Shown here in pieces: positions 5,874-63,495 of a stretch of DNA of 64,000 bases. The notes below the pieces were generated by a model. It was not told the origin of the DNA. It did no database searches and saw only the letters and a program-made list of their open reading frames with translations. Source of the DNA: Strobilurus pachycystidiatus. Its lineage: Eukaryota > Basidiomycota > Agaricomycetes > Agaricales > Physalacriaceae. Position numbers and translations under genes: made by a program. Numbering within the stretch: position 1 is the first letter of the stretch; the number at the start of each line of letters is the position of its first letter. The stretch lies in the NCBI GenBank assembly GCA_019915135.1, contig JAHLMK010000019.1:1-64000 (forward strand), given 5' to 3'.

Positions 5874-8800
5874 ATGGGAAGGGCAGGGAAAGAGAACGGA
5901 ACCACCGGGAGCAAAGACAAGGCGGCAAAGAAGGGTACGCTCCTTCTCACTTACTGGTGGCCCCACGGTACTGGCTCTGACGCGTGCTTAGGCAACGACG
6001 CCCGGAAGAAAATCAGCAAAGCCTCGGAAAAGAAACCTGGTGTGTTTGTTCGAGTCTTTGTTATGGTACACTGACCCTTGGTTTGCCAGCCAACAAGGAA
6101 ATCAAAACTTCGCCAAAGGTGGTCAATCCCACATACGAGGCCGTACAGTCAAAAGTGCGTTTTTGTTTTGGTCTCGCTAGCATCTAGCTCACCACCAACC
6201 CCAGTTGCTCCATATAACATTGCGGCAAGAATCTTACAATATCGACCAAGCTACCGTCAATGAAGACTGGATCCTTGAAACGATTCGATTCGACGCGTCT
6301 ACGGACTGCTTCCACGCCTCGAACACGGAAGGAAATATTCTCCACTCCTGCAACCATGGAGACCCCTCTCTCATTGACGGGCATCTTGATATGTCCTGTT
6401 CAGCTCTCCGCCCACTCGGTATCTACATATCTGACGTGTTCGAGCATTTCACACACTGCCAGGTCGCCATCGGTGTCGGGAACCCCCGTTCGAAGAAGAG
6501 ACGTGTCCCTGGGGGCGTCATCTTTGACCGAGACGATCTCATCGAATACCTGAAATGGAACGATCTTCTTCCACGCGCGTATACGGCGAACAAGCAAAAT
6601 CTGCAGCGCAGCCACGAGAAGCTCCTCGATGAGCTTTGCCAGCATATGGTGCAGTTACACCTGTTCTCCATCACCCGAGACGAGTTTCTGAACCGACAGG
6701 TCAACTACCCCATCCCCATTGAGGTTCCCGGGCTTGAGATCCGATGGATTGGAGTCTGCAACGCGTGCGACGTGGAAGAGGGAGAGCACGCCCGCTTCTC
6801 TATCCTCCTCAATCAGTCAAAAACGGGCTACCTAAAACGACAATACGCTGCGGCATGTGATCTTGGCGGCTTGTCGAACACCAAGAGTCGCCTCAAGGAA
6901 ACGACCAAGCTGAAGAGTTGCCTCGAGGAAACGTCCAAGCCGAATGACGGTCGCCTCGAGGATATGGAGGGTGAGGAAACGTCTGAGCCAAATGACAGTC
7001 GCCTCGGGGATGTGGAGGGTGAGGAAACATCCGAGGCGAATGACGGTCGCCTCGGGGATGTGGAGGGTGAGGAAACATCCGAGGCGAATGACGGTCGCCT
7101 CGGGGATGTGGAGGGCGAGGAAACGTCCAAGCCGAATGACGGTCGCCCCGGCGATGTGGAGGGTAGAGAACCCAAGAAGTATCATGGTTGTATCTGCTCC
7201 GGTAGTAGCGTGCCCACGGTGGTGATAAGCCGGGGAACACATCTCCAGGAATTCAGACTTCCGACGGTCAGGAAAATTGTCTATGTCACCTCGCCCGTCC
7301 CCCTTTCCTCTCCATCCGACAATGCTAGCTCTTCTACGCCTGCCGCCGCCACTGCTCGTGATGGGTCCGTCCCGGACATATCGCTTTTCCGATGGTACCA
7401 TCCTAGTCTCCAGACCACGACTCTCCTCTTCATTCCACTCCAAAGATTTCTAAAGATCGGTCAGAAGTTGGGGAATGTCTGTCCAAAGTCGGCGCCGAAG
7501 GGAATTTCCCCTAGACTCTTCATACTCCAGCAGCAGGCGTATGAGTTTAGGTGTGCGGGAGAACGGTATATGTTTCATGGCGAACAGGCCCTAGCCAAAG
7601 GGAATCTTCATACGACATGTCTCATGCGATCTGCGTAAGCCAATTTCAGATCCCGTTATTCTCGATTGTTGATGTCCTTACTCTAGGACTCGCCTCACCA
7701 TCAGGACGTTCCAGAAAGCCCAAACATGCCGTAACTACGCCAAAGTTGCCACAAAGCTCCTGTTCCTTCCCCTCCTCCTCGAACTATACAACGAGAAACC
7801 AACAGGGTTTCACTTTAATCTCTCCGCCAAACAACAAAAGATTCTGGACATATACAAACTCAGGATCGAACCAAAGGCAAGCGGGGACAAGGAGATCGAG
7901 CCTCTCGACCATTTCACCTTATGGCATCACTTCATGGCCGAGTCGTTTCAGCAATTTACAAGTACGACTTCGAGCGGGTCTCTTCCACTTGTCTTCCAAG
8001 TGCTTTCAATCATCGTCATCTCACTCAAGGGACAAGGACTTAATAGCCCCAGCACATTCACCGGCCTCATCGCCAAGCTTATCAGAAACGGAGTCTCCGT
8101 CATGATCAACACCGTAGCGTCAGAGGATGCTGAAGCTCGTTTTTCGGGGTCTGTCGAGCCGGACCCACTCTCTGGTTTGGCATCGTGGAGGCCCACAGAG
8201 CGATTTATGGCGGGTTCGGAAGGGCTGGGACCGGAGAAGAAGAGACGGAAGAGTGACGAGGGGATTGAGAGTGCAGGGAAAGGCGCAGAGGTTGAGGGCC
8301 CTGGGGCCATGCGGGACCAAGAGGGCGGCGGAGACAAGAGCAATGTTGATGACAAGAGGGAGAAGGAAAGGGAGAAAGAGCAAGATGAGAAGGATGACGA
8401 CGGCGGCGATGAGGACGACGGCGACGATGAGGACGACGGCGACGATGAGGACGACGACGACGACGACGACGTGGATGACGACCAAGAAAAATTTGACGAA
8501 GAGGATCTCGATGATGGTTTTCCAGAGATTGACGGTCCATTGAGGGTGAGTCAAGTCTTTCATCTCGCTGATGTGTCTGATCACAAGAAAGATGTTTGAG
8601 GATAGCCGGAAGAGTACAGATGACCGTGAGGCTGTCGATCGGAGCAAGGCTTACCAAAGGTTTGATTGTCTGACTCCAACGGATCCTCGCTAGTAAGCTT
8701 ACCTGCCCACAGAGAGCTACTGGATGTCATTGAGCGCCACGTCGGGAGTGAGTTCAGCATCCACCGTGGGCTGAAGAACTACTGGCTTGTCGCTGATTTG

Positions 8801-10814
8801 GCGAGTCGCGGACAGCAAGGTTCAACGTCCATTACTTGGAACGAAGCACGTACCACCGCAACCATCACCGGAGGCCAGAATTCACTGGAGAAGACTGTCA
8901 GTCTCGGCTCGCTGGTCTCATCATTCAACAGCCTGCTGGCCGATCTTACCTCGGACTTGGAGGGCGATCCGGGATATTCAGAATTCTGTCGTACCGGGGT
9001 TGTCCATCTTCAGGATAAGTACAACACACCCACCAGCTTCCTTGAACAAAACAGGGAATTTTTCCAGGCATATGTGCCGGCATTGCGTCCAAAGAATGGG
9101 AGGAAGAATGCCTTCAACTTCCAGCGGCAGGGTCACGAACGGCGGAACCAGATGCTCGGTCTCATCACGCACTCCAGTATCTCTCAGCGAAGCTTCCAGC
9201 TTGCAGACTACAGGTTGGAGTCTGCAACCGAGGGTGACGCCCATTTCCCTCATCGAAATATCCGGTACAAAGACGGCCAGATGGTTCTCGGGAACCCACC
9301 GCGCAAGGATGATAAGGACAAGGAGTACGCTGCCTATATCATACTCCCGAAATCACTCACAGCCATCTCTGCCTGGGTCCTGGGTCCTATGAGACTCGTA
9401 GAGCTTGAGCTGGTCGAAAAGGACCTCATTTCTCGGTCGCTCTACCGCACCTATATTTTTGTCGTCCCACTCCCCGGGAATAGGACGACCAGGCCATATG
9501 CAAGACGTTTCACCCCCGCGGATGTCAACGCCGCCCTCAAGGACGTCATGCTGGGGATGGGCGTACTCACACTACGCCACTTCTTCACCTCCCTCATACG
9601 AGAGCTATACCCGGCGCTCAATTTTGGTAGGTCATGATTCTGCTATCTGTTCATCCATCCAACCTTCACTCAATCCTCGCTAGGAACGCTCAAAGACGCC
9701 CTCCGTCGGACGACGTCGCCTCTCAATATGATGGGCCAACACACAGATAACACCTCCGATAAGAATTACGGAATCGACAAGGCGTTCGAAAACTCTGGAT
9801 TCTCCATCACCCGCTTTAGATTCCAACAGCCAGTGGCCCAGGCAATTCATCTTCTCCTCAAGCAGACAGGCTCATCCTCCACCGGATCAAACAAGGAGGC
9901 AGTGATTTCGACCCAAGTTGTACAGCTTGCGCAGACCGTTGTTCACGACTGCATGAAGGCACTGCAGTTTGTCAAACCCCGGCAGGACTTCGCTCGAGAT
10001 TTCCTGGACGACTGCAATGGGACATACTTGGCTCACGAGATTGTCTGTTCCGTTGTCGCTGCACTCTCTGAATATCCACAACAGCTCACGTACGAATACT
10101 CTTATGTTGACGAGTTGTCACCAAGAATAGTAGCCCAGGGACTGTCCCTCGTGCGTATCATCTTCATTCTTCTCTGCATAGATATGTCCTGAAGACGCTT
10201 CTGTAGGTGCGATATGCAGTGTACGAATGGAAGACTGGACACCACGAGAGATCCCACATATGGGCACAGCTGGTCAACAATTCCTTTTTGAAGGATCACG
10301 TAGAGCTCGTGTCGAAGCTAGAGCAGCTGCTTGACGGTGTCAAGAGCAATCCTTCCAATCTCTGGCAAAAGCTGGCTCACGGGGTTTACCAAAGTGCCGT
10401 TCGAGACCAGAGCACAGGGACGGTCCCATCGGCCATGTTTGATTTGCGTAGCAGGGTATATCAGGACCTCGATGCGCCTTCCGACGACTCTGACCCTGCA
10501 GAGGCCCAGAGGTAGGTTTCTTGTCCTCTATGGCCTATGCTTTGACTGAAAGTTTCAGTGACAACAGGAAGCGAACGAGGGCGGAAGGGATAGATGGGTG
10601 TGACACTACTGGGAAGACCAAGCGACAAAGGCGTCTATCGGCAGAGCCTGAGACAGCTGGACGACACAGGCAATGGCCCCGATACCATGTCTTTGTTGAA
10701 GTTCCTTCACTCCGGCTGGCACTCCTTCAACCACAGTCAGCACCCGAGAAGGAGCTGTCGGAGATGGAGGGTAAAGAGGGTTCGGAGTCAGAATGGGAGG
10801 AGGATTCGGAATGA
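5874..10814 (+). CDS. Uncharacterised subtelomeric family 1 protein, copy A (10 exons, 1487 aa)
   Basis: Exons read as 5874-5934, 5992-6039, 6090-6154, 6205-7634, 7687-8545, 8601-8659, 8713-9626, 9684-10150, 10207-10511 and 10559-10814. All junctions are GT...AG and the frame stays open, giving 1487 residues. I do not recognise the family. The N-terminus is basic and Lys-rich (MGRAGKENG). The first large exon carries GVGNP, GGVIFDRDDL and PIPIEVPGLEIRWIG, then five 16-residue acidic repeats. Exon 5 ends in a long Asp/Glu run. Exon 7 starts the conserved second half and ends in TLRHFFTSLIRELYP, followed in exon 8 by GQHTDNTSDKNYG. The C-terminus has a basic nuclear-localisation-like stretch (RKRTRAEG, TKRQRR) and an acidic end. 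Copy B at 58969-63495 has the same ten exons and identical intron phases. Nuclear function is an inference from composition. Confidence 0.82.
6925..7168 (+). repeat. 48-nt coding minisatellite (five 16-residue repeats)
   Basis: Inside exon 4 of family 1 copy A a 48-nt unit is repeated about five times in frame, encoding ETSEANDGRLGDVEGE-like units. The two central units are nearly identical, pointing to recent expansion. Copy B has no equivalent block, so the array arose after the two copies separated or was lost from B. Confidence 0.85.
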
Positions 10815-13706: not shown

Positions 13707-13814
13707 GAGGAGATGATGACGGTAAGAGTTCGAGATGCGGGCTGCCGCGTGATTCCTCTTTTTACCACGTTGACAGACGGCCCATAGGAAGGCGATTATA
13801 AAATCATTTCCAAA

Positions 13815-13902: not shown

Positions 13903-15619
13903 CAGGTAAGAGTACACAAACTAATTTAGGTCGAATACGTGTGTTTTGCCTTTTGACACGGACGCCTGACCGTCTTCTCTTACTGTAGGAATCAGGCGTC
14001 GTAATCCGCACAGCCCCTTGCTCCAAAAGTGTCTACATCATGATGTAGACTCTGCGCTAACCGCGACGACAGAGAGTGCGCCTCACAGGCGGCGAGAAGA
14101 CGGCGGAGAAGGTAGCCGCCTGATTGACAAAGATTTAGCCGGGAGTCGTCTCTCACAGACGTGGACCGGCATGTCCATAGGAACGCAGACCCTGAGACGA
14201 AACCGCAGCGCGTCGCGGTGGCGCTCAGCTCGACTGACGGGGCACTCGTGGCGTGCCGGAGAGGATCTAGGAGACCCCGGCCGGTGTGTTCGAGGTAGGA
14301 GTCAAAGTCTTCAGTCCTTTTACTTACGAGAACTGCTGATACCTCCATTTTCAGATCTTCTCTTACCTCAAGCCGCTGGATCTCCTGCGCATGATCCGCG
14401 CAAGCCATGATTGCTCATAGCCAGATCGACCGCCTTTGTGTGGGGAAGAGCGCATGAGAATGGTCACGCTGCCGCCTATTCTGAAGGGCCTCAACAAAGT
14501 CCAATCAGCAGACCTTGTGGTCAAATCTCTGCCCCCCGCTGGCGGTAGCCCTCTTCCCCCTGCGCGTTGTTCTTCTCCGTCCCCTCTTCTCATTCATCCA
14601 GCGTTACGCTCATTGCTGTACGTATTCCTGCTGCCTGCTGCCTAGTCCACTCTGTGGTTTCAGTCATGTAAAAGTGACTCTGCCTGGACATGACGTGAGA
14701 GCCAATAGCATTGTCAGGTCCGTTCAATACCGACCATCCTGCGACCATCACACATGCATGTGTCCTGCAAGAACCCCCGCTCTGGTCAGGTTCACGCAGA
14801 GAGTTTTCATTCAAAGTCCGCTGTCGCGCTGAATATTCATAATTGATCTATACTAATATAATTATTAGCACCTGGCGGGCGGCGAACGGCGGACATGCGT
14901 CGTCACCTAGAATCGGACGCGATTGGCCGTGACTACCCTTCACGTACATATTTAGCCAACGTATCCGACGCATTGTTGACCAGGTCCAAGTACTACGTGT
15001 GAAATGCCAACCGACGCCGCGGTCGATTGTGTGAGTGACCCGCGTCGCATGAACGACGCCACACTTTCCAGCTTCATGCGGGAGTCGACCAAACATCTCA
15101 CGATGAGTCTATACAGATCTCGATTAGACCGGTATATAAGAAGAAGAAAAACAACTCATGAAACGAAGGCCAACTTTCACTACATACTCGTCGTGATCGT
15201 GTCATTTCCGTCAGATGCGTACAAATCATCATCGGCACCCTCATCAGCGAGGTCAGCGCGGCCAGTTGCTGCGGCAGGCACACTGGTGCCATCGCCCTCG
15301 GGGAACTTGAGGTTGTTGCCAAATCCGTGTGATTGGTGGAAATTCTACAAGTAACGGGTGAGGCCCGGTGAGCGAGACACATAGAAGAGAAGGAAAATCA
15401 CGCACCTGGGCGGACGGCTGATGCCCTGATCAGACACGGAGCGACGAGCATACTTCATGGCCCCTCGCTGCGGATGGTGGTGCGCGTGAGGGAATCACTG
15501 GCGCAGGGTTAACGTCGGTGATGGCGGTGTTGTCGTCAAAAGCAGATGAATGATCTGCTTGGGTCCGGTCCGATCATAGGGCTTCGACATCAACCTCCAC
15601 CACAACAAGTCCTCTCTTC
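13903..15619. other. Long stretch without a recognisable gene
   Basis: Several overlapping open frames exist on both strands (for example 14018-14410 plus and 14408-13992 minus), but none has recognisable motifs, consistent introns or a paralogue in the window. The 3' part (15100-15619) is the upstream flank of family 2 copy A and may contain its promoter. No element is assigned. Confidence 0.45.
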
Positions 15620-17471
15620 ATGGCAAGCCCGTCAATCTCTAATTCCGTGGGCTCCTACCAATCCAGTCGTCCGCCGTCTGCACGTGTTCGGATTGCCACG
15701 ACTGCTCGCTATAAGATGCGCGACGTTGCAGATTACACGACCTTGGAGCAGTGGCAAGGTTTACTTCATCCCGACACCGACACCGACTCCTTCCCACTTC
15801 CACAGCTCCTATCAAATGAAGACGTCACTCCTCCGTGGCTAAACCCTGGACAACCACAGCTGCAGCCATTGGCCGCGACATTTGCTCATCCGCCTGGCGC
15901 GAAAAAGCTACGTGCAACGCCCCGCAAATCATCATCCAGGCGCAGCGGACGTTCCGCTTTACCAGAAGACGTTGCGGATCGCACACACAAAACTGCCAAA
16001 AAGCACCTATGGTCGGCTATCGCAGCAATGGGAACCGTCGGGCAAGACGTTCGCATCCTCGAAGACGCCGGGACTCCCGTCCGCACCGTTGCGTGCTGCC
16101 TGACCTGGTGTGCCGAGCTCCCGCCGTCGCCCATCGTGGCAGCCCATTCCTTTCGCCAGGCGACACCGACACACACACACGTCATGTCATGCCGTTTGAT
16201 TGGCGGGTACTTTCACATTTACACACGTCTGATATTTGTTTCCCGTACGTGATAACCTTTTGCTGTTTCTGTAGTCTAATGGTCTACAAGTTGAACCAAC
16301 ACACCACAGCAACTGGGATGCAAACCACTTCACTATTGTTCTTGATCCAGGCGAAGTCGCTGTTCGACAGGCGATGGTGGAACACAATACATTCCTCGAG
16401 AAGGTGGAAAGAACACCCAAAGCAACCTATTTGGACTGGTTCGCATTGATGCGACTTTATCATCCAGAACTTGTATGTCCCTGTGTTATTTCCTTCTTCT
16501 TCCTGTCTTGAGGGCATTCATAGCACCAAGGACGCCGTTTTCGTATTCGCTTCATTCCTCTGGGTGGGAGGGCCATTGTTGGCGATGATCGGACTGAGTC
16601 GTATGCGCGCATGTCAACGATCACAGCTTGGACCTTTGCCCATCCGCTTCTCCTCATGTTGCGGTTCATCGATACCATGCATGCTCACGGCGCTCCCTGG
16701 CAATACTGGTCAACGGATCCTTCGGATATCGAAGATTGGCTCAGCCAAAACTTCCCTACCCTTCTGATTGACGAAGTCGCTTGTTTTGCCACCTTCGCAA
16801 GGGTTGCGGCGCTATATTACCGACGTTTTCCAACGGAGCCCCAGTGGTACCGCGCCGGCCAAGGGAACACATCTTCGGCTGCCTCCTCAAGTCGGAGTAT
16901 TGGTACGACGAGTACCGGCACAATGGGCACTGGGATGAATGTGTCCGATTTCATGGGCCCTTCTCCGCCTGGTCTATCCGGTGCGGGAACGAGGCAGGGT
17001 GAAAACGGGCACGACAGCAGCAACGGCGGCCAAAGCAGCTTCACTAGCTTTGCCCAGCTCTCGCCTGCTCAGCGTATTGCATGGGAGTGGCGTTCCGCAA
17101 ATGGGATCGATCCAGTCACGGGCGCCTACTCCTCTTTGCCGGGATTTGTCAAGAAGACATGTACCGCTTTCCAATCCTCTCTCATGCACGCGCTGCTGTC
17201 GACACCGCCACCTTCTCAATCACCGAGGCCTTCGACGCCATTGTATGCTTCGAGCGCCAAAACTTCAACCCCCACCTCTTCAACCACTTCCCTTCGTACT
17301 ACTGTCGTTGGGTCCGAAGGTCCGAGCATTCCGCTGCCCGCGATGTGGCGCTCAAGCAGTGCGGACCACGACGACGGACGGTTGCCAAAGTCGCAGGTTG
17401 GCAACATGGTGCCATGTGGAAAGGTTTTGTCTGACCTTTACCGAAACACGCAAATGGGTGTGGTGAATTAA
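15620..17471 (+). CDS. Uncharacterised subtelomeric family 2 protein, copy A (3 exons, 587 aa)
   Basis: Three exons give an open frame: 15620-16237, 16275-16472 and 16524-17471, ending in TAA. The first donor is a weak GTTTCC; the stronger GTACGT just downstream would break the frame, so the 3' end of exon 1 is the least certain point. I do not recognise the family. The N-terminal 200 residues are Ser/Arg/Pro-rich and basic, ending in CRLIGGYFHIYTRLIF. Exon 2 has NWDANHFTIVLDP and TYLDWFALMRLYHPEL. Exon 3 opens HQGRRFRIRFIPLGGRA, then FAHPLLLMLRFIDTM, DWLSQNFP, a low-complexity Gly/Ser linker, and LSPAQRIAWEWRSANGIDP. The C-terminal tail is Ser/Thr/Pro-rich. The same landmarks occur in the same order in copy B at 20.2 kb. 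No catalytic motif is evident. Confidence 0.75.
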
Positions 17472-19974: not shown

Positions 19975-20052
19975 TTACATACCAGCTGAGGAAAATCAAG
20001 CTTTGGAGTCCATGGTCGAGTAGAGCTAAGTGATGCGTGTGGACAGAAGAAG

Positions 20053-20073: not shown

Positions 20074-20206
20074 CAACTTGTTGTACTAGTAGGCCGTGGT
20101 CAAGTATTAAAACAGCCGAAGCGTTGATGTGATGGGGTGACAAAATCGCAATGACCGGTCACCGCATTCGGACAACAAGCCTTGGTTCCTCTCCGCGACA
20201 CCACCA

Positions 20207-22019
20207 ATGTCATCTCGCAGTCACCGGTCCTCTGTTGCTTCAACAGGCTCCCGAATCGCCCCTTCGCAGCGTCTCGATGCCCGGCATTTCAACAGCCTTC
20301 CCACTGTGACGACTGTCCGTGGCTTTACGAAAGTCAAGGACTGGGAGCGACTTCCCTTCATCGATACTACCGACAGCCGCCCATCGTCTTTGCGCCTCCC
20401 CCCCGGGATCTTTCTTCCAGATTGGTTGGAGACCCCCCAACTACAAACCGCCGCAACGGACTTCGATAAACTGGACGCCGACGAGTCCAATCCAACCGTT
20501 ACCGCGGTATCGCTCCGCCCAACTCCACGCAAACCGAGTTCTGTACGCAGCGGACATAGTCACCGAGCCGCATCCACGCCGGACCCTCGCCATCGTACCC
20601 ATTCGACTGCGAAAGACCACCTCCTCCAAATCATGGTGCAGCAACGTGTGGGTGTCTTCAACGGCGTAGTTGTGTGCGCTCTGACAGGTGATACGCGCAT
20701 ACAAGCAAGCCACTCCGTCCGCGAAGCCACTTCGGAAGTCACCCGCGTCGCCTGTTTCTGGGTCATCGGCGGTTACTTTCACAGCTGCTCCCGTCTCATG
20801 TATATCCCTCGTGCGTCCCTTCCGTCCTTGCTGTTTCACACACCCTCTGATCAGATTATCAGTCACGCCTACTGAGCACATTTCATGGGACCGCAACGAT
20901 TTCGCCGTCATTGTGGCTGATCCTGAAATCCTTGCCGCCCTCGACACCTATGCCGAATTTCTCCATGACTTGGACCAGAAGCCGGATTCCAAGTATCTAG
21001 ATTGGTTATCTCTTGTGCGGATGTACCATCCGGTGCTTGTGAGTACAGATGCTCTTTCAATGTTACTAGCTTGACGCCTTTGGCAGCACCAGGGACGTCC
21101 CTGCAAGATTCGATTTATCCCTTCACGCCGACTCACGAAGAAAGTCTACAATGACACTACTGAAACGGCGCTCCCCTACTACCAAGTTACAGCGAAAATT
21201 TTTGCCCACCCTCTCTTCCTCATCCTTCGCTTCATTGACACGCTGGCCTCAATGGACGCCATGTGGCAAGCTTGGGCCCATTCCGACGACCCTCAGCCCG
21301 AAATCAAGAACTGGCTCACTACGCACTATGGGGATAGCGTTCCTGAAGAGATACCTATGCAGGAGCTGGTGGCTTTCACGCTCACGGCCGCAAAGTACTA
21401 CAAGCGTTTTCGTAAACGGCCAGTTTGGGCCAGATCGCCTTCTACATCCGGCATCAGCTCTCAGCTGGGCTCGATGTCGCTCAGAACCACCGAACCCAGT
21501 GACGGCTCACTCTTTAGTGCGAATCCTCCTCCATCTGATCGTTCTTCGGCAGAAGGAAGTCGTAACAACGGCAGTAGTAACCAGAGTCTTGGCACGGAGC
21601 AAGCTACCACTCAGAGGGCTGGTGGCGGAACTCGACATGGCGCAGCAAGGGAGGGGTCCAATGAAGAGGATCGATGCGCTGCTGGGGCGCAACAACCGTC
21701 AAGCGGGCTGACACCCGCACAGCAGATTGCATTCGACTGGAGGCGTGCAAATGGCATCAGCGACCTTTCGTGCCTCGCCGCAATTGATACTCCTCCCACT
21801 TCCGTCATCACGATTGACGACAGCGCCCAGCAAAATCACCCGCTCCCTTCCATCCACCCCCTTCTCCACATCTCGCCCAGCGTAGTGCAAAGACCTACCA
21901 AAACGCGGATCTGGCGTCGACGCGGCGTCGTTCTATCTCAGCATACTTCGCCGCCCAAGAGGGTGTCAGGTGCACAATTCCACAGTCGCATACGCTCTCC
22001 ACTTGGACTGGCAAATTGA
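20207..22019 (+). CDS. Uncharacterised subtelomeric family 2 protein, copy B (3 exons, 570 aa)
   Basis: Exons 20207-20810, 20863-21038 and 21087-22019 join without stops into a 570-residue protein with standard GT...AG introns. The order of features repeats copy A. There is a basic Ser/Arg/Pro-rich N-terminus, CFWVIGGYFHSCSRLMYIP at the end of exon 1, and EHISWDRNDFAVIVADP and KYLDWLSLVRMYHPVL in exon 2. Exon 3 opens HQGRPCKIRFIPSRR, then FAHPLFLILRFIDTL, NWLTTHYG, KYYKRF, a Ser/Gly/Asn-rich linker and LTPAQQIAFDWRRANGISD. Divergence from copy A is large in the linkers but the landmarks are kept, which argues for selection on protein function. The function is unknown. Copy A lies 2.7 kb upstream on the same strand, separated by two minus-strand pseudogenes. 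Confidence 0.8.
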
Positions 22020-33237: not shown

Positions 33238-36200
33238 ATGGCGCCGTTTTCAAACCTGAGCACGGTGCTCAAGCAGGCGGACGGCTTGGTCAGCGTCGGG
33301 CAGCCGCATGCCGCGCTGCAGAGCTTGTCGGATTTGTTTGCCAGCAAGCGGTTCCGGAGCACGCCGTTACCAATGCTCGAGCCTATCATGATTAGGTGCG
33401 CTGTCTGCCTGCCTTCCCGCACGCCGTCCTCATCGTCTTACCTCCCGGAAGATTCGTCGAATTATGCGTGGAAACTCGCCGTGGACGTCAGGCCAAGGAG
33501 GGGCTCATATAGTACAAGAACATTGCCTAAAACGTGGATACATCGTCGGTGGAGCGCATCGTTCAGCGGTTAGTTGGAGAGGCGAGCAAGCGCGTGACAG
33601 AGGCTGTGGACAAGGCTGCCACGGTCACTGCCGGCGGCGTCGAGGTCGAGGATTTGGAGGCGTCCAAAACGCCCGAGTCCATTCTGCTCGGTGCGGTCAG
33701 CGGCGATCAGAGCAAGGACAGAACCGCGCCCTCGTCACTCCTTGGCTCAAGTTACTGTGGGAAGCTTACCGGACGAGTCTGGAAACCTTGAAGAACAACG
33801 CGCGTCTTGAAGGCATCTATCAAGTAAGACATTCATCTGATTGGTATACGAATAGAATTCCTAACCAGTTGTTAGCATATTGCACAAGCCGCCTTTAAGT
33901 TCTGCTTGGCGTACAACCGTCGTGTCGAATTCCGCCGTCTCTGCGAAACCCTCCGTCTCCATCTTTCCAACGTCGCCAATTACTCCCATCAACCCCATGC
34001 CATCAACCCCTCCGACCCGGAGACCCTCTAGCACCATCTCGATACACGCTTGGCCCAACTCCAGACGAGCGTCCAGCTCGAACTTTGGCAGGAAGCCTTC
34101 CGCAGCGTCGAGGACGTACACATGCTCCTCACCATGGCCAAGGCGTTCACCACCACCAGCGGGAAACAAGCACGCCCAACGATGTTGGCCGGCTACTACG
34201 AGAAATGCACCAAGGTCTTCTTGATGAACGGAGGCGGAGGAGCAGGCGCTTTGTGGCACGCTGCCGCTTGGGGACCGTACTACACCGTCATCACCAGCAT
34301 CCCGAGGGAGGCTGGATTACCGTCACAAGAGGAGCTCGCCGGCCAGGTCCTTGTCAGTGCGCTCGCTGTCCCCGTCAACACCGACTTCGACGAGAGCGGC
34401 ACGGAGGCCAAGGGCAAGACCGCGCGTTTGACAGCGCTTCTTGGACTGGCGCGTCCTCCTACGAGGAAGCGTCTTCTGGATGAAGCCCGAGTTGCTGATG
34501 TCCTGCGCTTGAGCCCTCCCCTCGTGCAGAAACTGTACGACGTCCTCGAGGTGCAGTTCGACCCTCTGACGCTGTGCGCTGATGTCGCTCCGATTTTGGA
34601 GTCATTGGAGGCCGAGATGGTCTACAAGGATTATGTCCCTCTTCTGAGGGAAGCTGTCTTCTTGCGCTTGTTGTCCCAGCTCAGCGAGGTGTACTCCACC
34701 ATGAAGCTATCTCAGCTCCTCGATCTTGTCAAGCCATTGGGCGAATCCTGGGGCGAGGGACGCGTCGAGGCCTACGTCATGGGTTGTGCTCGTCGTGGAG
34801 AGCTCAGCGTCCGCATCGACCATCTCGCCGGCTCCGTCGAGTTTGTTGACGAAGGCTTCGCCGGTGTCAACGAAGACAGCATTGGAACTGGCATCGGCGC
34901 TAGGGATGGAGGTATCCAACCCAGCATCGGCGAACTCGTCAGGAAGCGTCTCGGCAACGTTGCCATGTGCCTACACAACAGTCTCGCCAAGATTGACCCG
35001 CCCCCAGAGACACCTGTTGAGGACCAGAATGCCAAGCTTGACGTTCTTCTCAAGGCCGTCAATGCTGAGCGTAAGGCGCTGGCCCTGCGTCGGGCGCTTG
35101 TTGCCAGGAGGCGCGAGTTGAACTCGGAGTTGAGCGTGAGGAAGGAGAAGGAAGAGTTCGCGGTTGGCGGAGAATGCGCGGAAGAGGAAGGAAGAGGAAG
35201 GCAAGCGGGAGCGCGAGGCGATGCGCGCCACACGGGAGCGGGAGAACATTCAGCGTGTCGAGGCCGAAAAATACGCACAAAGCCTCCTCAAAGTTGGTAC
35301 ACTCAAGGGAAAGGACTTGGAGGTATGCAGATTCGTTTTTCGCTATCTTCTTCAGTCATTGATGATGTCTTCAGAAACTCGACAAATTTGATACCGAGAA
35401 CCTCCTTGAGATGCAAGTCAAGCAGCTGGAAAAGGAGAAAAAGGAGACCAGCCAGCGTCTGCGCGTCATCGCCAAGCGCGTCGACCACCTCGAGCGCGTG
35501 TATCGTAAGGAGGAGGCGCCGCTCCTTGCGCAGGACTATGCCCAGCAGCAGCTGACCGACCGCGGGACCCATGCCATTGTTCAAACCCAACTCAAGGCGG
35601 CAGCCGTGCAGCACCCCAAGGAGGAGCTGGACACGAAGAAGCGCATGCTCAGGATGATGGACGATTACCAGAAGAGGAGAGAGGATTTGGTGAGGAAGAA
35701 GGGCGAAGAGTTCGCGAGGAAGAGGGACGAGGCGACGAGGAGATGCGAAGAGGAGAAGGCTAAGCGGAGGAAGGCGGTCGAGAAGAAGAAGGAGGAGGAG
35801 CGCAAGGCCAGAGAGGAGGAGGAGAGGTCGAGGAGGCAGGCAGAGGAGGAGGAGAGGAGACTCGAGAGTATGTTCTTTTTTTCTGCGTTTGATCTTCCCC
35901 GTTCTGACTGTCATTCCAGAACGAGCCGCAGCAGAAGAAGCAGAGCGTGCCGAAGCAGGGCGTATCCGCCTCGAATCTGAAGCCGCTGAAGCCGCCAAGG
36001 TGGAGAAAGCCCGTAAGGCCCACGAGGAACGTGAAGCAGAGCGTGCTGCCGCTGCAGAGAAAGCCCGTCTCCAGCAGCAGCGCGAGGAGGAGGCCGAGCG
36101 ACGTGCAGCGGAGAGACGCAAAGCTGCCGTCGCCCCGCCGGCCGTGTCTCGCAGCGCATTCAGCCGTCGCGATGGCGGTAGCAATCCTTGGCGCCGCAGC

Positions 36201-38433: not shown

Positions 38434-40282
38434 TTGCCAAGCCTTTTACACATTGCCACACTGCTAGGTACTCTTATGGCATTCCCGGACTGTTCGGTTG
38501 GAGCGCCCATCATGGTACCCATCGACATTGCAGATTATCTGCGCAGGGCACGGGAGCGGGTCGTAGACCCAGACTACGAAGAGGAGGTACTTCCTCTGGA
38601 GGACCGTCCTTCGGCCGTGCAAAGTGACGATGATTCGCTGTCGTCGCTAACTTCTTTGGACGACCAGTCTGATTTGGACCTAGACGCGTCTTCTGCTTAT
38701 CTCCCTCCCTCCCTCCCACCAGTCCAGCCTGGCAATCGCAAGTCTCAAAAGCGCAGAGCGTATCGTCGTCGCAAGCCCTCGGCTCGGCGCAAATGCGGGG
38801 ATGTTGATCCGCGCAAAATTCGTCCCCTGCCGTCTATCCCTCCGAGCGCTCAGGCTCGCATTTACCTTCAAACGACACCGGATATTGGTGTGCTATCCCC
38901 TACGCACGTACCTTCTGTGTACCCGGAGTCTCTGAACTCAGCCTCGTCGTCGTCTTCCATCCACCCTCCCTACTCCTCTCCTCCCAGGGCACCCTTCCTT
39001 CCGTCTTCTTCCTTCCCTGACGATTTGACCCCACTGGCTCCCTCTGGCAGGAAGAAGAACCGCAAGAAGCGTAGCCACGAGCAACAACAGCGCCACAACG
39101 TCAACCGCAAAGTCAAGCGAAAGGAGAACCGGCAGCGCGAGCAGGCTCTCAATGGTGGCTTGAAGAAGATCTCACTCAAGCGAAAGCGTGAAGAGGAGCC
39201 TATCTTCCTGCCCGAGTTCGATGCTCATACTCTTCCTTCGACCCGTGGTGCATGGCTTGGCCGGCGTCAGTGGTTTGAACGTACTCGTCGCACCCTGGCC
39301 GATATTCGTGAAGCAGGGCTTTATGTAATCGAATGGGAGGGCCACGACACCCATCCCCTCATTGATAAACTCAGTCGGGCCTTCATTCTCCTGTCTGCCC
39401 CTCCTCGTGACGAATCATGGCCAGATCTGTGCAGGAAGATGCAGGAACTCATCGAGGAGGCGGAGAAGGAGATCCTCTTCACGGAGCATCACAAGGACCA
39501 TCTTCGGGGCCCTTTCCCCGCCATGACCATTGGCGTCTCTCATGGTGGAGGTAGAGAGGTATTGACACCCACAGAACACAATTGTCTTAAACTTATGTCA
39601 TTTTTCTTTTTTTTAGGCGCCAGGAAATGTGGCAATGTCCAAGACTAATCGTCGAGTGTTGGAAAAGCTCATACACTCGCCGGAATGGGTAAGATTTGTT
39701 CGCCATAACGATCGTATGTTTTCCGCACTACTAGTAGACCAGTGTGTTGATCTTCTCTCAGGTGTATTCCAGGCGCACAACCCGGCCATGTACAACATGT
39801 ACAACGAGGTTCTCACATCCGTCTGCGACGACGATGGGTCACTTCGTCGCAACCATGAGCGCAGCCCGTATGCCGCCACCACAGTGAATATGAAGGGCGA
39901 AGTGGTCTGCGACGATCATACCGACTCTGCAAACCTTCCTTATGGTTGGTGTCGTGTTACTCCCTTCGGCCCCTTCAACTATCGGCTGGGTGGTCACATG
40001 GTGCTATGGGATCTTGGGATCGCCATCCAATTCCCCCCTGGTACCACCATCTATCTACCGTCTGCTCTCCTGGTCCATTCCAACTTGACCATCGGGGAGG
40101 GTGAGAAGAGATACTCCATCACTTCATACTCTGGCGGTGGTCTCTTTCGTTGGATCTGGAATGGCAGCCAAACAGACGAGGCATGGGAAGAGGAAGCTAC
40201 CGATGAGGACCTGCTCATGCGAGAGCGGTATCGTGACACTGCCTGGGATACCGCCATGCAATACTTTCCCTTGTGGTCCTGA
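38434..40282 (+). CDS. Candidate TET/JBP-like 2OG-Fe(II) dioxygenase (2 exons, about 596 aa)
   Basis: Exons 38434-39558 and 39617-40282 join in phase through a 58-nt intron. In-frame Met codons at 38476 and 38512 are alternative starts. The N-terminal half is disordered, acidic then strongly basic (RKKNRKKRSHEQQQRHNV, LKKISLKRKREE), like a nuclear or DNA-bound protein. The C-terminal half has FPAMTIGVSHGGGRE, a helical segment RRVLEKLIHSPEWVRFV, and then a double-stranded beta-helix-like core. In that core His and Asp (DDHTDSAN, codons 39917 and 39923), His (LLVHSN, 40076-40078) and Arg (EKRYSI, 40109-40111) are spaced as the Fe(II) and 2-oxoglutarate ligands, followed by GGGLFRWIWNG. This is a very common Agaricomycete domain that resembles the fungal TET/JBP-like dioxygenases associated with 5-methylcytosine oxidation and KDZ transposons. 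The class is an inference from motif spacing. The frame is intact. Confidence 0.6.
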
Positions 40283-54429: not shown

Positions 54430-57400
54430 CTGTTGTCGTTCAACAACTTTCTGCCTAGCGTGCTGCAGAAAAGGCCGTCGCTGCCGCCATCAGCATCGTC
54501 GATCCAGATGGACGACGAAGAGGACGACGAGGAGAAGAAGAAAGACGACGGGGGTGAAGAAGGGAAGGAGAAGGACAGAAAGGCAAACGAGGTCGAGCTT
54601 CCTTCTCTGCACTTTCCTACGATGCTGATCCAGCCATAGACATTCATCTTTTGTTCGCCCGCCACCCGCGACATCGAACCACCCCCTTTATCTGCAAGTA
54701 CAGCTCGTGCCGCCAAACACACGCGGCGGGCGGACTGGCGACCGCTGCTACTCCCCGCCAATCCCTCGACTCTACCGCTCCTGGGTCAGAAGAAGAGGTC
54801 CCGCTGTCACGCACGTCGACCAACCGGTCGTTTACTCGTCGATGTCCACTTCCTCTTTCGCGTCCTTATCCAGCTCGGGCTCGGGCAGGAGAACCATTGT
54901 GCTGCTATACAACCTGCAGGCGCACAATGTCATGACGAATACGATCGTTGACGCCGGCACGGATGCAAAGATCGCGACATTCTCCAAACGACGGCTGGAT
55001 ATGGTAGATCTGGCGGCGATGGAGGTTGTGGAGGTCTGGGCGGCGAGCGAGACAGCGGCTGTGGCAATATTGCAAACGTCTCCTACCTTTGGTAACTCCC
55101 ACCTCCATGTTTCTCAGGTGATTAACTAAAGTTCGGTAGATTCGCGCCGTGGATCGTCGCACAGTGGACTGGGCGGAAGCAGACCAACCACTCCCACACC
55201 TGAATCGTCCGCTATATCTCTATCGTCCGCTGGGTCGCAGAATCCCCTTCATCCATCTCCTCCCAACCCGCCAAGAAAAAGGACAACCTGTTTGGACGCA
55301 TGTTCAAGGAGAAACCGGACAACACCATCGTGCCTATCCCGATACCCGACATCCCCATTCCGCTACCCTCTACACCCCCAACACCCGACCCGTTCATGAA
55401 GACTCCAACCACTGCCAGACACTCTCGTCATCTAAGCGCGTCCTCGCCGTATATGCCCCGAAACCTGAGTCCGTCGCCAAATCGGAAACGCATGTTGCTC
55501 AGCGCAGAACCAAAACCTACGCCTGAGGTTCAGGCACAAGTTCTGTTGCCCGCCACGCTTGGTGTCCAGCCCCTTCTCAACATCAGCGTCCCGCCTCGAA
55601 AAGGTAAGTTCATGTCTAAAACTTGGGAAATCAGTAACTTATGAACGTAGGACTTCTAGTACTCACCGATGGCTCTGAATCCCCACCACGAAGCACCCAT
55701 GAAGCTCCGATGTCGATTCCGGATAGACTATGAGTGTGTGATTCGTGGCGTCGCCGAAAAGGTAAGTTCATGTCTAAAACTTGGGAAGTCAGTAACTTAT
55801 GAACGTAGGACTTCTAGTACTCACCGGTGGCTCTGAATCCCCACCACGAAGCCCCCATGAAGCTCCGATGTCGATTCCGGATAGACTATGAGTGTGTGAT
55901 TCGTGGCGTCGCCGAAAAGGTAAGTTCATGTCTAACTTGGGAAGTCAGTAACTTATGAACGTAGGACTTCTAGTACTCACCGGTGGCTCTGAATCCCCAC
56001 CACGAAGCCCCCATGAAGCTCCGATGTCGATTCCGGATAGACTATGAGTGTGTGATTCGTGGCGTCGCCGAAAAGGTAAGTTCATGTCTAACTTGGGAAG
56101 TCAGTAACTTATGAACGTAGGACTTCTAGTACTCACCGATGGCTCTGAATCCCCACCACGAAGCCCCCATGAAGCTCCGATGTCGATTGCGGATAGACTA
56201 TGAGTGTGTGATTTGTGGCGTCGCCGAAAAGGTAAGTCCATGCCCGAAACTTGGGAATCCAACAACTTTTATTTCTACTAGCTTTGGATGGCTCTGAATC
56301 CCCCCAACGAGGTCCTCATGAACCTCCGATGTCGACTTGGGACAGACTTTGAGTCTATCATTCGTGGCGTTCCCGAAAAGGTAAGTCCATGTTAGAAAGT
56401 GAATAATTCATGAACTTACGAACGTTGGATTTGTACTAGCCGTGGATAGCTCCAAATCTTCCGTGGAGATCCCTAATGAACCTCCGATGTCGATTTCGGG
56501 CACAGTTTGAGTCTGTCAATCGTGGCGTCCACGAGAAGGTAAGTTCATGTTAGAAAGTTGGGAATTCATGTACTTACGAACGGACGATTTCTACCAGCTA
56601 TGGATGGCTCTGAATCTCCCGTAAGATGTCCAAATGTACCTCCGAGGTCGTTTGGGGACATACACTGAGTCTATCATTCGTGGCGTCCCCGAAAAGGTAA
56701 GTTCATGTTAGCATGTTAGAAAGTTGGGAATTCATTAACTCACAAACGCAAGATGTCTATGACCCACCGATGGCTTCGAAACTCCCCTACGAAGCTCTAA
56801 TGAAGCTCCGATGTCGATTTGTGACAGACATTGAGTCTGTCATTCGTGGCGTCCCCCAAAAGGTAAGTTCCTGTCCGATAGTTGGGAATTTGTTAACTAA
56901 TGAACGTAAGATTTCTATTGCCCACCGATGGCTACGAATCCCACCCTCGAAGCCCGCATGAACTTCCAATGCTCTGAATCCCCCCATGAAGCCCGTCTGA
57001 ACTTCCGATGTTCACGAGGTGGTGCGGATCGGGGAAGTCGACCCCGCTGCATGTCAAATAGATTGAAGAGTTGGTGGATCTGGATAGCCAGGCTACCGTC
57101 GAGGAAAATGGCTATGGGACCGAGATGGGGGATACGTTAGGCCGTCTGGGGGTGAATGATTACGCAGAGCCGGAGGGGGATGGATGCTCAGAGTACGGAG
57201 GACGAGGGATATGCACCTTCGCCGCAGAGGAAGACGCAGGAAACAGAAGAGCGCATACGACCGCCATCCGTATGGCATTGGCACCCACAACCAACCTCGC
57301 CCACCACCCGCGAAGGACGATACATTCACTATCCCTACTTGTCGGACATCTTCTGGCCACCACACAGATCGAAAGGGTGGAACCGTCGCCGGAGACGTCA

Positions 57401-58213: not shown

Positions 58214-58968
58214 GGAAGCAAGTATCCCAGGCCACACGGAAATGAACATGGGCACGCAGTAGCTCCTTCGTGTGTGTGAACAAATAAACAGTGTTTTTTT
58301 TTCAGTACTTCGTGCGCCGTACAATGCGGTGTCAGAGAAAAGAGCCGTTCAGGTTCCTTCACTTGATTACCCGCTGATCAGGTCGCGGCGCTGAACTAAG
58401 TACGGTACGGCCTTGCAGGGGTTAGCTTGGATGTAATGGGCCTCATTTTATATACTTTGGACGCGTTATACCTACAATCCGATGCCCCATCTACCTTCAA
58501 CCGACTTGGCGTCATGTGTACGATCTCGAATTCTCGCGGGTGGGATGACAATAACAAAGGATGTGCTCACAAAGATCGTCTTCGATGCAGCGCATCCAAA
58601 ACGCGCTTAAGCCGGGCCCTCGAAGACCAAGTGATGACATAGTACTAGTATACAATCAGGAAGCCAGTACTCGAGTAATACATCGTATATATCATATGTG
58701 AGCGTGCGCGAAGCGGTCTATAGAAAATGTGTCTGTTCATCTCAGGTCGTGATTATAATGAGAGACACCGAAGCGTCCGTGCATATTGTATATCGTACCA
58801 AAACTGAAGACCAATCTAGCATTTGTGCCGCATTTTGATGGGTATTTCGCTGACCTGGACCATCATCATCATAAAGGGGTATTCGTGGCCCTGGCTCGCT
58901 AATTTCTTTCGTCCCTTCCACGTAAACAACAATAACCCGGCTGCGCTCACAACCTTGCTTTGACCATC
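58214..58968. other. Intergenic stretch upstream of family 1 copy B
   Basis: No recognisable gene. The part next to 58969 is the likely promoter and leader of family 1 copy B. Confidence 0.5.
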
Positions 58969-61900
58969 ATGGCGAAACCGAAAGGACGAAAGAGTGGAGG
59001 TGTGTCCACTCGAGACTTCTCAAGTTCCATGCTCTGAACCCGTCTGTAGCTCCACCGGCAAAAAAAACCGCCACGGTCAACAGCAAAAAGCGTGAGTGGG
59101 ATGCTACCGGAATCTTTGTGAAAAGACCCTGAAACTTTGCGTGAGTAGCCCAACCCACCAAGAAGATTGGAGACCAAGTGGAACCGCCACGAGTCGTTGC
59201 CGCTAATTACGAATTTGACTCGCAAACTCAGGTGCGCAGAACATGTTCAGCGTCCATTTCGGAGCTGGCTACTAACCACGAATCTAGCGTCTCCATCACG
59301 TTCTGACAGAACACATAAAAGACAAATTCCCTCGCGCGCACCAAAAATTCTCTCCCTTGGATGGCCTGAAATATGACGCCGAGCTAGACATATTCACGGT
59401 CAAGACCAAGGGCGGAGCGAAGATCTCCTGTACCCATGGTCATCATCAGCCAGAAAGTGACCGTCTCGATGGCCACATGAGTTTGGAGTGTGTTGCTTTG
59501 CTTGGAATCGGCTGCTACATTACCACCATCTTTTCTCCCTTCACCGGACACCCCACCATCATTGGCGTGGGTAATCCGTCTGCTACCACCCACCACAAAG
59601 CTGGAGGCGTCATACTCTCCATGTCGCATCTTTCCGACTATCTGAAGCGCAGGAAGCTGCTACGCCCCAAACCGGGGCGAAAGGCCTCTCGCGAGATGAC
59701 TCTCCATCTCATGGAGCAACACCTTACCGCCCAAGGCCTCTTTGAACTCCCCTACGAGGAGTTTATTCGGCTGCAGCGTCCCCATCCCATCCCTATTGAA
59801 TTGCCCGGTCTTCCCATTCGTTGGTTGGGACAGTGCGAGGCCGAGAAGACGGACGGGGACCTCTGCTATTTCCGTTTTATGATCACCAAGGACAAGGCGA
59901 GAGTTCCCCGCTTCCAAATTCCCCGACATCGGATCCTGGAAACGTCTCAGAGGGCGCACGTCAACTGCCCAGACCCTCCCCTCCCCCTCATGATTCGGGG
60001 GACCATGGCTAGGGATTGGGTTCCCCCAGGCAACCCGAAAATTCCATACTCCGAAAAACTCGAGTACGTGACGAATCCCGTCCTCCTCCCAAAAGCATTC
60101 ACTACCACTACCACCTCGTCGTCATTGACTGAAGCCACTGCGGTCGCCAACAGCACGTCATCTCCATTCCTGTTGTCTGTCAAAGAGGCGAAATGGTTCC
60201 ATGATATCATGCACCGTCCTTGCCTCGCCATCGAGGACTCTCCCTTGCTGTGGGTTATGATCAAAAGGGTGGGTTCCGCTTGGGGTAATCTCGCGAAGGG
60301 CCATCCTCGCCTCCAGTGCTTGGGCGGTCTGGCTGTTGGATTCATGAAGGCGGGCATCGCCTATGGATACAACGCTGATAAGGCGCTTACTAATGGACAT
60401 CCCTCCACGAAGAGACTCCTGCAAAGACAGTGAGTTAAACATATATGACGTTGAACTTGACTGACTCCGCTTAGAGCCCGCGTTACACTCGGCGAGTTGC
60501 AGACAGCTTCGTCACGGGCCTCTTATGCGAAAATGGCCACGAAGATGCTATTTGTCCCCCTTCTCCTGAAGCTCTTAAAGAAGGAGAACGGCATTTCTTT
60601 CACCTTTACGCCTCGCCAGCGAGAGGTTCTCAAAATCTACGCCGACGCGATCAACCAGGACAACAGCGACCTCGACCAGTCCCTTCAGATGAAATGCTGG
60701 CACCATTTTATGACGGATGCATTCCAGCAATCTTCGAAGCCGGGCGGCGCCTTGCCGCTTGTTCTACAGACGGTGGCGATTTTGGCGCGGTCATCCGATG
60801 GGAAAACCATCTGTACCGCCAACTACTTCACGTCTCTCCTCTCCAGATTCATACGAAATGGGCTCTTCTGCATGATTAATGCCGTGGAGAACAAGGAGGC
60901 GAAGGCTCGTTTCTCCAACTCTGGGATTGATACAGCGGGTTCAAAGACATCTGACACTCTGTCTTCCTGGACCCCCGAGTATGTGGATGGCGACAAGGCT
61001 GCAGCCGATGGTGATGATGAGGATGATGAGAGCGAGGGCGAGAGCGAGAGTGAGAGCGAGAGCGAGGGCGAGGGCGACCCAGCGCAGGCGGTGCAGATAG
61101 ATGACGAGGATGTTGACGAGCTGGAGGAAATATCAGGGCCTCTTGAGGTGAGCGCCTCTCTGTTTCTCGCCTGGAGCTACGAATCTGACTCCGTATGAGA
61201 TTCACGAAGAGCCGGAGTGCGACCAAAATGCTTCGGTGGGAGTGGCTTACGAAAGGTTTGATTATTCCTTAGGCCGTCAAATGCTGCTAACTTCTTGGTT
61301 TACAGAGAGCTGCGCGAGTCTATCCGCCAGCAACTAGGAGATGGCCCGGAAGACTTCACGGTTCACCGGACGGTGAAGGACCTATGGTCACTGGCAAACA
61401 AGGCCAGCCGCGCCGAGCAAGGATCGACATCCGTCACTTTCAACGCTGGCCTGACGGAGGCGACCATCGTCCGAGGCTTAGCAAACAACTCTACCACCAC
61501 CATTGTTCCAGTTCTCAAGCTGAGAGACGAGGTGGACACGTTCCTCCGTCAGATGATGGCCGAGCTGCAAACAGATAAAGGCTTTGATAAATTCTGCAAA
61601 AGTCTGGATCAGCTGAAGGACGACGTGACTAGTCCCGTTGGCGTCTTTGAGCAGAACTTCGATTTCCTCGAACCCTTCGCCCAAGACCTCTTCCATTCCA
61701 TCCCCTCCTCTTCTGGCCGTCACTTGGACTTCATGCGAACTGGTCTTCGACGCCGGGACACCGCGCTCCCTCCCATGACGTGCAGTGGAGGTATCCCTCC
61801 ACGTGCTTTTCAATGGGCTTGCGCCCTCCTTGTCTCCAAGCATGCGGAGGGTCTCCATCGCAATCTGCGTTTCCTTGCTCACATTAACGCATTCATGTTT

Positions 61901-63495
61901 GGTAACCCGCCCTCGAAGCCTAACAAGAACAAGGAGTCTACCGCTTACTTCATCTTTCCATCGCAGTTCACTCCGCTCCTTGCTTGGATTCTGGGTGTCT
62001 GCCGTAGGGTGGAAGTCCAGATTCTCGACCTCTACTCGCACGTCAAAGCCAAGAAGCTTTATGAAACCTACATCTTTGTTGCTCCCCCGCGTACCATGTC
62101 AGCTTCGTCGAACGCAAAGAGATATAGCGCCGCAGACATCAATGTGGCTGTCAGCGCTGCATTTTTCGGCGCCGACATTGCTTTGCTTCGCCATTTCTGG
62201 ACTGCGCTGATGCGTACGTTCTTTCCTACGCTGAACCACGGTACGTGTTGTCCTGAGCCTTAGATCCTTCATTATCTCACAATGCCAAAGGAACTATCAG
62301 CGACGAATTATCACGGAAAGGAACCGCTCCGCTCAACAGTGCTGGTCAACACAGCAACGCGACCAGCGATGCCAGATACGCCCCGGAAAAGAATTTCTAC
62401 GCATCGGGTTACCATGTTGTGTCCTTCGAGTATCAGCTTCCTGTGTCCGTGGCGGTCCATCGTTTCCTTGGATTTGTTAAACTGGCTCGCACTCAATCGA
62501 GCGAAGAAGCCAAGGATGAGGATTCGAGGATCCCTCACGCTGCAGAGCTGTGCCAATCGCTTGTTTACAGCGCAATGGCTGGACACACCACACAAGTGAA
62601 GAAGGGCATTTTTGCGCGGTCCTTTCTAGCCCACTTCGACGCCAGAATTTTGACTAGCGACATGGTTTGCGCTGTCGTGGCGGCCCTGGGTGCTCCACGC
62701 TTCGCAGCCTTTGACTTCGACGCTGTTCAAGCACTTACTACCAGCCAGGTTGCGGCCGGCTTGGCACTGGTAAGTCATGATTGCCGCCGATAGCATGATC
62801 TGATCAGGATGGCCTAGGTACGATACGCCATCGGTGAATGGGAGAGCGGAAAGGGGTACTCTCGTTCTGCTCTCTGGGAAGGACTTGTCCGAGGAATTCC
62901 GGATCTGAGGCACAAAGACTTGGTAGCGAACTTACAGCAGCAGATGGAGCAGGTCAAGGCAAAGAGTCCCGAAGTATGGATGGAACTAGCCAGGAAAGTT
63001 CACGATAATGCGGTCCGTGGTACCAACACCGGTCATATGACCATGGTTTCGGACGCAGTGTTCGACATCGGAGACGCCTTTACTGATATTGAAGTACCCG
63101 TTAGAGCTTTCACGGTTGCCAAGAAGGCAGTCAGGTAAGCCACAAGTCGGAAGCTCTGTATCATCCATAACATCATTGACAGAAAGCGCAAACGCGCAGA
63201 CTCAGAAAGCGAAAGTAGCGAGGATGAGGAAGATACGGAAACGGACACGTCAGAGGATGAAAACGACGATGTAGATCTGTTCGGGGATGACGATGCGGAT
63301 CTGTTCGGGTCAGATGACGAGGAGCTCTTCGGGTCAGACGACGATGGCGACGACGAAGTCAACAATGTGGATTTGTTCGGGTCACTCTTCGGGTCAGACG
63401 ACAATGGCGGCGACAATGGCGGCGACGATGACGATGATGACAGCGACGATGACGACGATGGCAGCGACTATGGCGGCGACGACGACGGCGTTTGA
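58969..63495 (+). CDS. Uncharacterised subtelomeric family 1 protein, copy B (10 exons, 1356 aa)
   Basis: Exons 58969-58999, 59050-59091, 59149-59231, 59288-60429, 60475-61147, 61200-61255, 61306-62240, 62291-62769, 62818-63134 and 63183-63495 give 1356 residues with no internal stop. All nine intron phases (1,1,0,2,0,2,1,0,2) equal those of copy A. It starts MAKPKGRKSGAPPAKKTATV (basic). It then has GVGNPSATTHHKAGGVIL, PIPIELPGLPIRWLG, LQTASSRASYAKMATKMLFV, and an acidic Asp/Glu/Ser run (61010-61130). Exon 7 carries the conserved half with LYETYIFVAPP and LLRHFWTALMRTFFP, and exon 8 opens GTISDELSRKGTAPLNSAG then QHSNATSDARYA. A second acidic tail with DLFGSDDEE-type repeats ends the protein. 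The function is unknown. The family was not recognised by me, and no enzyme motif is certain. Confidence 0.84.
63289..63493 (+). repeat. Acidic coding repeat at the C-terminus of family 1 copy B
   Basis: Imperfect in-frame repeats of about 27 nt encode DLFGSDDEE-like units and then a GGDDDD-rich end. Copy A ends in a different acidic tail, so charge rather than sequence is kept. Confidence 0.75.

Follow-up and report, generated by a model that had tools for sequence, protein, structure and literature searches.

The first 64,000 nucleotides of contig JAHLMK010000019.1 (C19; hereafter the window) of the basidiomycete Strobilurus pachycystidiatus carry two intact copies of a ten-exon gene, here called family 1. 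We propose, with a probability of about 0.6, that family 1 encodes a large, free-standing and very divergent tyrosine recombinase that is active on chromosome-end DNA. We hold with high confidence that the protein has a tyrosine-recombinase fold and is kin to a sister domain in genes that also encode OrsD and helicase domains. There is direct support for the gene structure, its conservation, purifying selection, the predicted fold and the relationship to the sister domain in profile comparisons.

The C-terminal half of the family-1 protein is predicted to fold like XerA, XerH and Cre. When the AlphaFold2 (AF2) model of exons 7-8 of copy 1 was ranked with VIA-align, rows 1-37 all belonged to the tyrosine recombinase superfamily and were followed by a wide gap; the predicted local distance difference test (pLDDT) and predicted template modelling (pTM) scores of the model are modest. 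The original prediction had guessed at nucleic-acid binding from the basic ends and acidic runs of the proteins, and the fold points in that direction, specifically to a tyrosine recombinase.

Which residues would carry out catalysis? Across exons 7-8, a number of columns are invariant in all four intact members (two in the window, one each on contigs C2 and C1). They include I..R..Q (seen as SISQRSFQ in copy 1 and as GIPPRAFQ in copy 2), a Lys, an LR with a T four residues on, and QH with a Tyr nine residues past the His. We take the conserved Arg, Lys, Arg, His and Tyr to be the Box I Arg, the catalytic Lys, the Box II Arg, the Box III His and the nucleophile, roles assigned from motif order and spacing and not from structure coordinates. 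GxxRxVE of exon 7 was considered as Box I and dropped, as the sister-domain alignment placed Box I at GIPPR/SISQR and located the Lys.

OrsD (PF12013) has matches at 26 places in the genome (51.8 Mb, 61 contigs), many of them near contig ends. At four places, on C12, C37, C49 and C1 (at 6.41 Mb), the order is OrsD piece, long open frame, helicase domain. The Pfam matches in the C12 gene are consistent with this order, with OrsD there just below the cut-off. The OrsD/helicase genes of this genome are taken as telomere-linked helicase (TLH) genes. Four middle frames were compared, three from OrsD/helicase genes and one from an OrsD gene on C14, where no helicase was seen. The four have largely the same series of blocks, namely (S/A)GxPxRGxE, RNL (RTI at C14), a KT pair, RH and GH, with a Tyr nine residues past the His of the GH block. 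At its cut-off, Pfam finds nothing in these four frames besides OrsD. The sister domain on C12 (L014/L028) is, as listed, 100% identical to those on C37, C6 and C41 (L029, L030 and L031), a sequence pattern suggesting that the domain has recently spread, or been converted, from one chromosome end to another.

Profile comparison joins family 1 to this domain. Against a sister profile of 19 of 23 places (L029, L030, L031 and L034, near-identical to others, were omitted), hhalign gave a probability of 96 and an E of 1-2e-9 over 219 columns; against the four sister sequences, E was 5.8e-5. With well-filled columns the score was 78.9, compared to at most 26.9 among 200 column-shuffled controls. One outlier of 134.3 (13 columns at the profile end) in an earlier 100 shuffles was treated as a program artefact, and none appeared in the 200 further shuffles. 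The region preceding the recombinase-like domain, in exon 5, also aligns with the sister genes (34.2; best of 100 shuffles, 21.4). The family-1 N-terminus resembles OrsD in layout, but its score of 20.3 did not exceed the best of 100 shuffles (20.7), and Pfam gave no OrsD match in the scanned exons. Single-sequence genome searches with the sister domain did not list family 1, and when family 1 was made into a HMMER profile, the best E for the sister domain was 0.036; the link therefore rests on profile-profile comparison.

A model of the sister domain, built from an 18-row alignment of 15 sister and 3 family-1 rows, has a pLDDT of 79.5 and a pTM of 0.80, and in VIA-align its 36 leading rows are from the tyrosine recombinase superfamily (524 chains). 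Foldseek found no significant match for it; the two best rows were XerH, at E 0.25 and 0.5. Against nine phage integrases, the sister profile scored 24.5 (best of 100 shuffles, 20.1), with its GHS...Y paired with theirs. The same comparison did not rise above shuffles for the pooled family 1 and sister set (22.3; shuffle best, 22.9) or for family 1 (17.3; shuffle best, 22.3). A Protein Data Bank (PDB) sequence search with the sister alignment returned a single row, Ecotin (E 0.22), judged to be chance.

Family 1 had been described as unnamed. This holds in that a Pfam scan covering 8 of the 20 exons (4, 5, 7 and 8 of each copy), with two pieces scanned a second time, found no family at cut-off, but not in the sense of a family without kin, which were found by fold with VIA-align and by profile in the OrsD/helicase genes. 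Those exons gave no match to PF00589, DUF3504, GCR1_C or DUF3435 and no RecQ-type helicase domain; two matches that fell short of their cut-offs, to TypeIII_RM_meth at E 0.04 and to ALTTAQ_rpt at E 0.0097, were set aside. Full-length copy 2 and an exon-7 alignment found no match, within the limits of the searches, in a set of 5.8 billion proteins, which is not evidence of rarity because the set may hold few fungi. Two other results were judged to be chance: Contactin-1 (E 0.92), the sole row of a PDB sequence search with exon 7, and one row at E 8 from a phage tblastn.

Both gene models in the window were rebuilt from sequence. The rebuilding bore out two intact copies of ten exons each, without internal stops and with identical intron phases (1,1,0,2,0,2,1,0,2 after exons 1-9), and the conserved landmarks (GVGNP, GGVI, PIPIE-PGL-IRW, TYIFV-P, LRHF-T-L and GQH) are present. 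The rebuilt proteins have 1483 and 1352 residues, against 1487 and 1356 in the original prediction. All 18 introns are GT-AG and 45-67 nt long. Splice junctions were hand-picked, and at the very short exons 1-3 and 6 the choice was guided in part by the reading frame, so phase identity is weaker evidence there than at exons 4, 5, 7, 8 and 9. BLASTP aligns the two proteins in three segments that jointly span most of both, the best with identity at 213 of 612 columns (E 1e-97). Both have acidic and basic tails. Exon 4 of copy 1 contains an in-frame 48-nt tandem repeat in five copies (window 6925-7164) that is absent from the other three members.

In a six-frame search of the genome, exon 7 of either copy found the identical four places, two in the window plus C2 and C1. 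The C2 and C1 members have uninterrupted open reading frames over their modelled extent. The C2 model has all nine intron phases of the window copies, with introns 3-9 at matching places; in the C1 model, introns 3-9 have counterparts with the same phases, introns 1 and 2 have no counterpart, and the tail holds one extra intron. The 3' ends of both models are provisional, and exon 2 of the C2 model is placed 2 nt off, affecting a few N-terminal residues. Given these intron places and phases, the shared ten-exon architecture exceeds chance. A fifth locus, found with exon 4 as query, is a stop-ridden 5' piece near 1.16 Mb on C9 (2.06 Mb); tblastn with the four proteins did not find the recombinase part of family 1 in the 6 kb around it.

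Selection was evaluated on 1166 gap-free codons in six member pairs, whose amino-acid identity is 26-38%. In all six, the proportion of nonsynonymous sites that differ (pN, 0.43-0.55) lies well below a nearly saturated synonymous proportion (pS, 0.72-0.75); observed pN/pS is 0.58-0.76, compared to a mean of 1.01-1.03 and a lowest value of 0.93 when codon columns were shuffled 100 times per pair. Because pS is saturated, a precise dN/dS is unobtainable. Using a protein alignment for codons biases toward low pN; the second codon position, however, is also least changed in every pair (0.39-0.51 versus 0.67-0.70 for the third), and purifying selection on family 1 is therefore well supported. Of the two explanations offered originally for the intactness of the genes, selection is thus borne out by pN/pS below the shuffled controls in six of six pairs. 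Recent activity is not, given members only 26-38% identical and a DNA search with window 6300-7100 that found no copy elsewhere in the genome, just itself and its own tandem repeat.

Where do these genes reside? The window starts with ~97 bases of CCCTAA repeat, and therefore copies 1 and 2 lie ~6 and ~59 kb from a telomere. The C1 member is 67-72 kb from the start of its contig, which is capped by telomere repeat. The C2 member lies ~14-19 kb from a contig end that has no telomere repeat, which makes its subtelomeric position only likely. The description of the family as subtelomeric is thus clear for three of five loci (two in the window and C1), and fails for the contig-internal C9 relic. 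Each of the four intact genes has its direction of transcription pointing away from the contig end closest to it. Flanks are unrelated between copies except for a short match of the C1 and C2 members, the 16-mer CATAGATGTCCCTGGT, which precedes the modelled start by ~70 bases in C2 (L011:7310 on the minus strand) and by ~147 bases in C1 (L012:824). It has no other occurrence in the genome, and a 17-mer around it was not found in the window with up to 2 mismatches allowed.

In the mechanism that we propose, the protein would consist of an N-terminal part with a conserved C-H-H-C quartet that may bind zinc, a middle that the sister genes also have, then an acidic linker, and an Xer-like catalytic domain. 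It would bind DNA as a multimer and cut and rejoin strands through a Tyr-DNA bond, with chromosome-end DNA as its target. Its role may be that of an integrase of a now low-copy element, or it may be a recombinase that has been retained and reshuffles subtelomeric DNA. We infer the catalysis, the target on DNA, the binding of metal and the biological role.

Why favor catalysis? The Arg, Lys, Arg, His and Tyr are invariant in four of four members at 26-38% identity, and a protein that only binds DNA would need no such set. This is the argument against a domesticated protein of recombinase origin that has lost DNA cutting and serves a DNA-binding or architectural function in subtelomeric chromatin or transcription, which we regard as an unlikely alternative, though one with several observations in its favor: single divergent copies under purifying selection, a tested DNA piece without a copy elsewhere, no clear element ends, and acidic and basic tails. 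The Box II His of HxxR is also missing, with L, A, A and R in its place in the four members; known tyrosine recombinases vary at this position. There is precedent among Crypton-derived genes, in that DUF3504 and the central parts of Gcr1 and Cbf2 are described, in excerpts of one study, as recombinase-like without the full catalytic site (PMC3212892). Caution about a catalytic recombinase is called for by the missing His, by copies that are single and divergent, and by the absence of clear element ends. Foldseek gave no significant match for the copy 1 domain model. Repeat searches listed no bracketing pair around copy 1 and, around copy 2, one 22-nt pair (77%) whose inner arm lies within the acidic-tail repeat.

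Family 1 might instead be a mobile-element gene, a Crypton-like integrase or a helicase-less relative of TLH elements, that moved from one chromosome end to others, with the present copies as old insertions. This overlaps with the recombinase reading and seems to us doubtful, if slightly less so than a non-cutting protein. The near-identical copies of the sister domain on C12, C37, C6 and C41, the decayed relic inside C9 and the 16-mer common to two members at just two genome places would fit it; the divergence of the copies, their unrelated flanks beyond that short match and the lack of a repeat pair clearly bracketing either window gene do not. An unrelated helical protein, with the fold ranking an artefact of weak models, would account for the Foldseek results, the modest model scores and a family-1 profile no closer to phage integrases than shuffles are. 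We consider this very improbable, since two models from different query proteins both rank the recombinase superfamily first with a wide gap below, the conserved residues come in a fitting order and at fitting distances, and hhalign beats its shuffles.

Table 1. Family-1 genes, exons and candidate catalytic residues (window positions unless a contig is named)
Feature	Position	Strand	Remarks
Copy 1 gene	5874..10814	+	ten exons, 1483 aa, rebuilt model
Copy 1 exons 1-5	5874-5934, 5992-6039, 6090-6154, 6205-7634, 7687-8545	+	
Copy 1 exons 6-10	8613-8659, 8713-9626, 9684-10150, 10207-10511, 10559-10814	+	
Copy 1 exon 4	6205..7634	+	N-terminal region; C-H...H-C quartet in 4/4 members; GVGNP, PIPIE-PGL landmarks
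Copy 1 exon 5	7687..8545	+	first ~130 residues shared with OrsD/helicase genes, then acidic run
Copy 1 predicted recombinase-fold domain	8713..10150	+	exons 7-8, intron 9627-9683; AF2 model, VIA-align
Copy 1 putative Box I Arg (SISQR)	9188..9190	+	invariant 4/4
Copy 1 putative catalytic Lys (NPPRK)	9305..9307	+	invariant 4/4
Copy 1 putative Box II Arg (TLRHFFT)	9575..9577	+	invariant 4/4
Copy 1 putative Box III His (GQH)	9740..9742	+	invariant 4/4
Copy 1 candidate nucleophile Tyr	9767..9769	+	nine residues past His; invariant 4/4
Copy 2 gene	58969..63495	+	ten exons, 1352 aa, rebuilt model
Copy 2 exons 1-5	58969-58999, 59050-59091, 59149-59231, 59288-60429, 60475-61147	+	
Copy 2 exons 6-10	61212-61255, 61306-62240, 62291-62769, 62818-63134, 63183-63495	+	
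Copy 2 exon 4	59288..60429	+	N-terminal region as in copy 1, without tandem repeat
Copy 2 exon 5	60475..61147	+	region shared with OrsD/helicase genes and acidic run, as in copy 1
Copy 2 predicted recombinase-fold domain	61306..62769	+	exons 7-8, intron 62241-62290; by alignment
Copy 2 putative Box I Arg (GIPPR)	61802..61804	+	aligned
Copy 2 putative catalytic Lys (NPPSK)	61916..61918	+	aligned
Copy 2 putative Box II Arg (LLRHFWT)	62189..62191	+	aligned
Copy 2 putative Box III His (GQH)	62350..62352	+	aligned
Copy 2 candidate nucleophile Tyr	62377..62379	+	aligned
C2 member, exon-7 match	C2:3,059,315-3,060,214		six-frame search; ends vary slightly by query copy
C1 member, exon-7 match	C1:69,673-70,557		six-frame search; ends vary slightly by query copy

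Elsewhere in the window, the telomere repeat (~97 bases) directly joins a gene in positions 1-5000 with the motifs LDGETNLKPR and SDKTGTLT, presumably a P4-type flippase; the chromosome end looks as if it had been healed inside this putative flippase gene. A second diverged paralog pair occupies 15554-17471 and 20141-22019, with first frames 36% identical (E 1e-19) and second frames 33% identical (E 3e-28), the latter without a Pfam match. At 34 kb from the telomere, a frame with an eIF3a PCI domain (34032-35555; E 1.7e-41) marks a housekeeping gene, and another at 39617-40282 has a below-cut-off match to the Tet_JBP oxygenase (E 0.00051). About 2 kb before copy 2 lies a tandem array of ~9 copies of a ~156-158 nt unit (55597-56971).

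What would a chromosome-end recombinase mean for TLH genes? Subtelomeric RecQ helicase genes have been on record since 1998, and excerpts of one article describe their function as unsettled (PMC7473861). A 2020 paper on telomere-linked helicases found no domain besides the helicase core, and excerpts of a Ustilago maydis study, which mention OrsD and describe a conserved core for UTASb, do not contain the word recombinase (PMC10532341). Among the matches listed in open-licence PubMed Central (PMC) text, preprints aside, none reported that telomere-linked or subtelomeric RecQ helicases carry a tyrosine recombinase. We tentatively suggest, at a little under even odds, a superfamily of tyrosine recombinases at fungal chromosome ends in two forms, one fused to OrsD and a RecQ-type helicase in TLH genes and the other free-standing in family 1. 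If true, the helicase genes would be recombinase-helicase elements, which would explain their spread between telomeres. A recombinase beside the helicase, together with a helicase-less sister family that purifying selection maintains, supplies a concrete enzymatic hypothesis for TLH that is testable by one point mutation, and would add a eukaryotic recombinase lineage unreached by Pfam profiles here. The superfamily itself is old; what appears to be new is a lineage of it at fungal chromosome ends that no Pfam model reached in this analysis, and its link to chromosome-end helicase genes.

Compared to known systems, family 1 has no sequence similarity to Xer (XerA 4a8e/5hxy, XerH 5jk0) or Cre in Pfam or the exon-7 PDB search. 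Those chains have 266-349 (Xer) and 322 (Cre) residues, whereas the family-1 proteins have 1352-1483 and lack the Box II His. Starship captains are also fungal tyrosine recombinases, but their DUF3435 has no match in the scanned family-1 exons and just two in the genome, both at C17. Cryptons and the genes derived from them (DUF3504, GCR1_C) likewise code for tyrosine recombinases of eukaryotes and have extra domains, and hosts have retained some of them according to excerpts of their description (PMC3212892), but their Pfam domains are unmatched in the scanned exons. Unlike the TLH genes, which include UTASa and UTASb of Ustilago and the subtelomeric RecQ genes of Agaricus, family 1 has no helicase domain in the scanned exons, and the OrsD relation of its N-terminus is not significant; with these genes it shares, by profile, both the middle region and the recombinase-like region.
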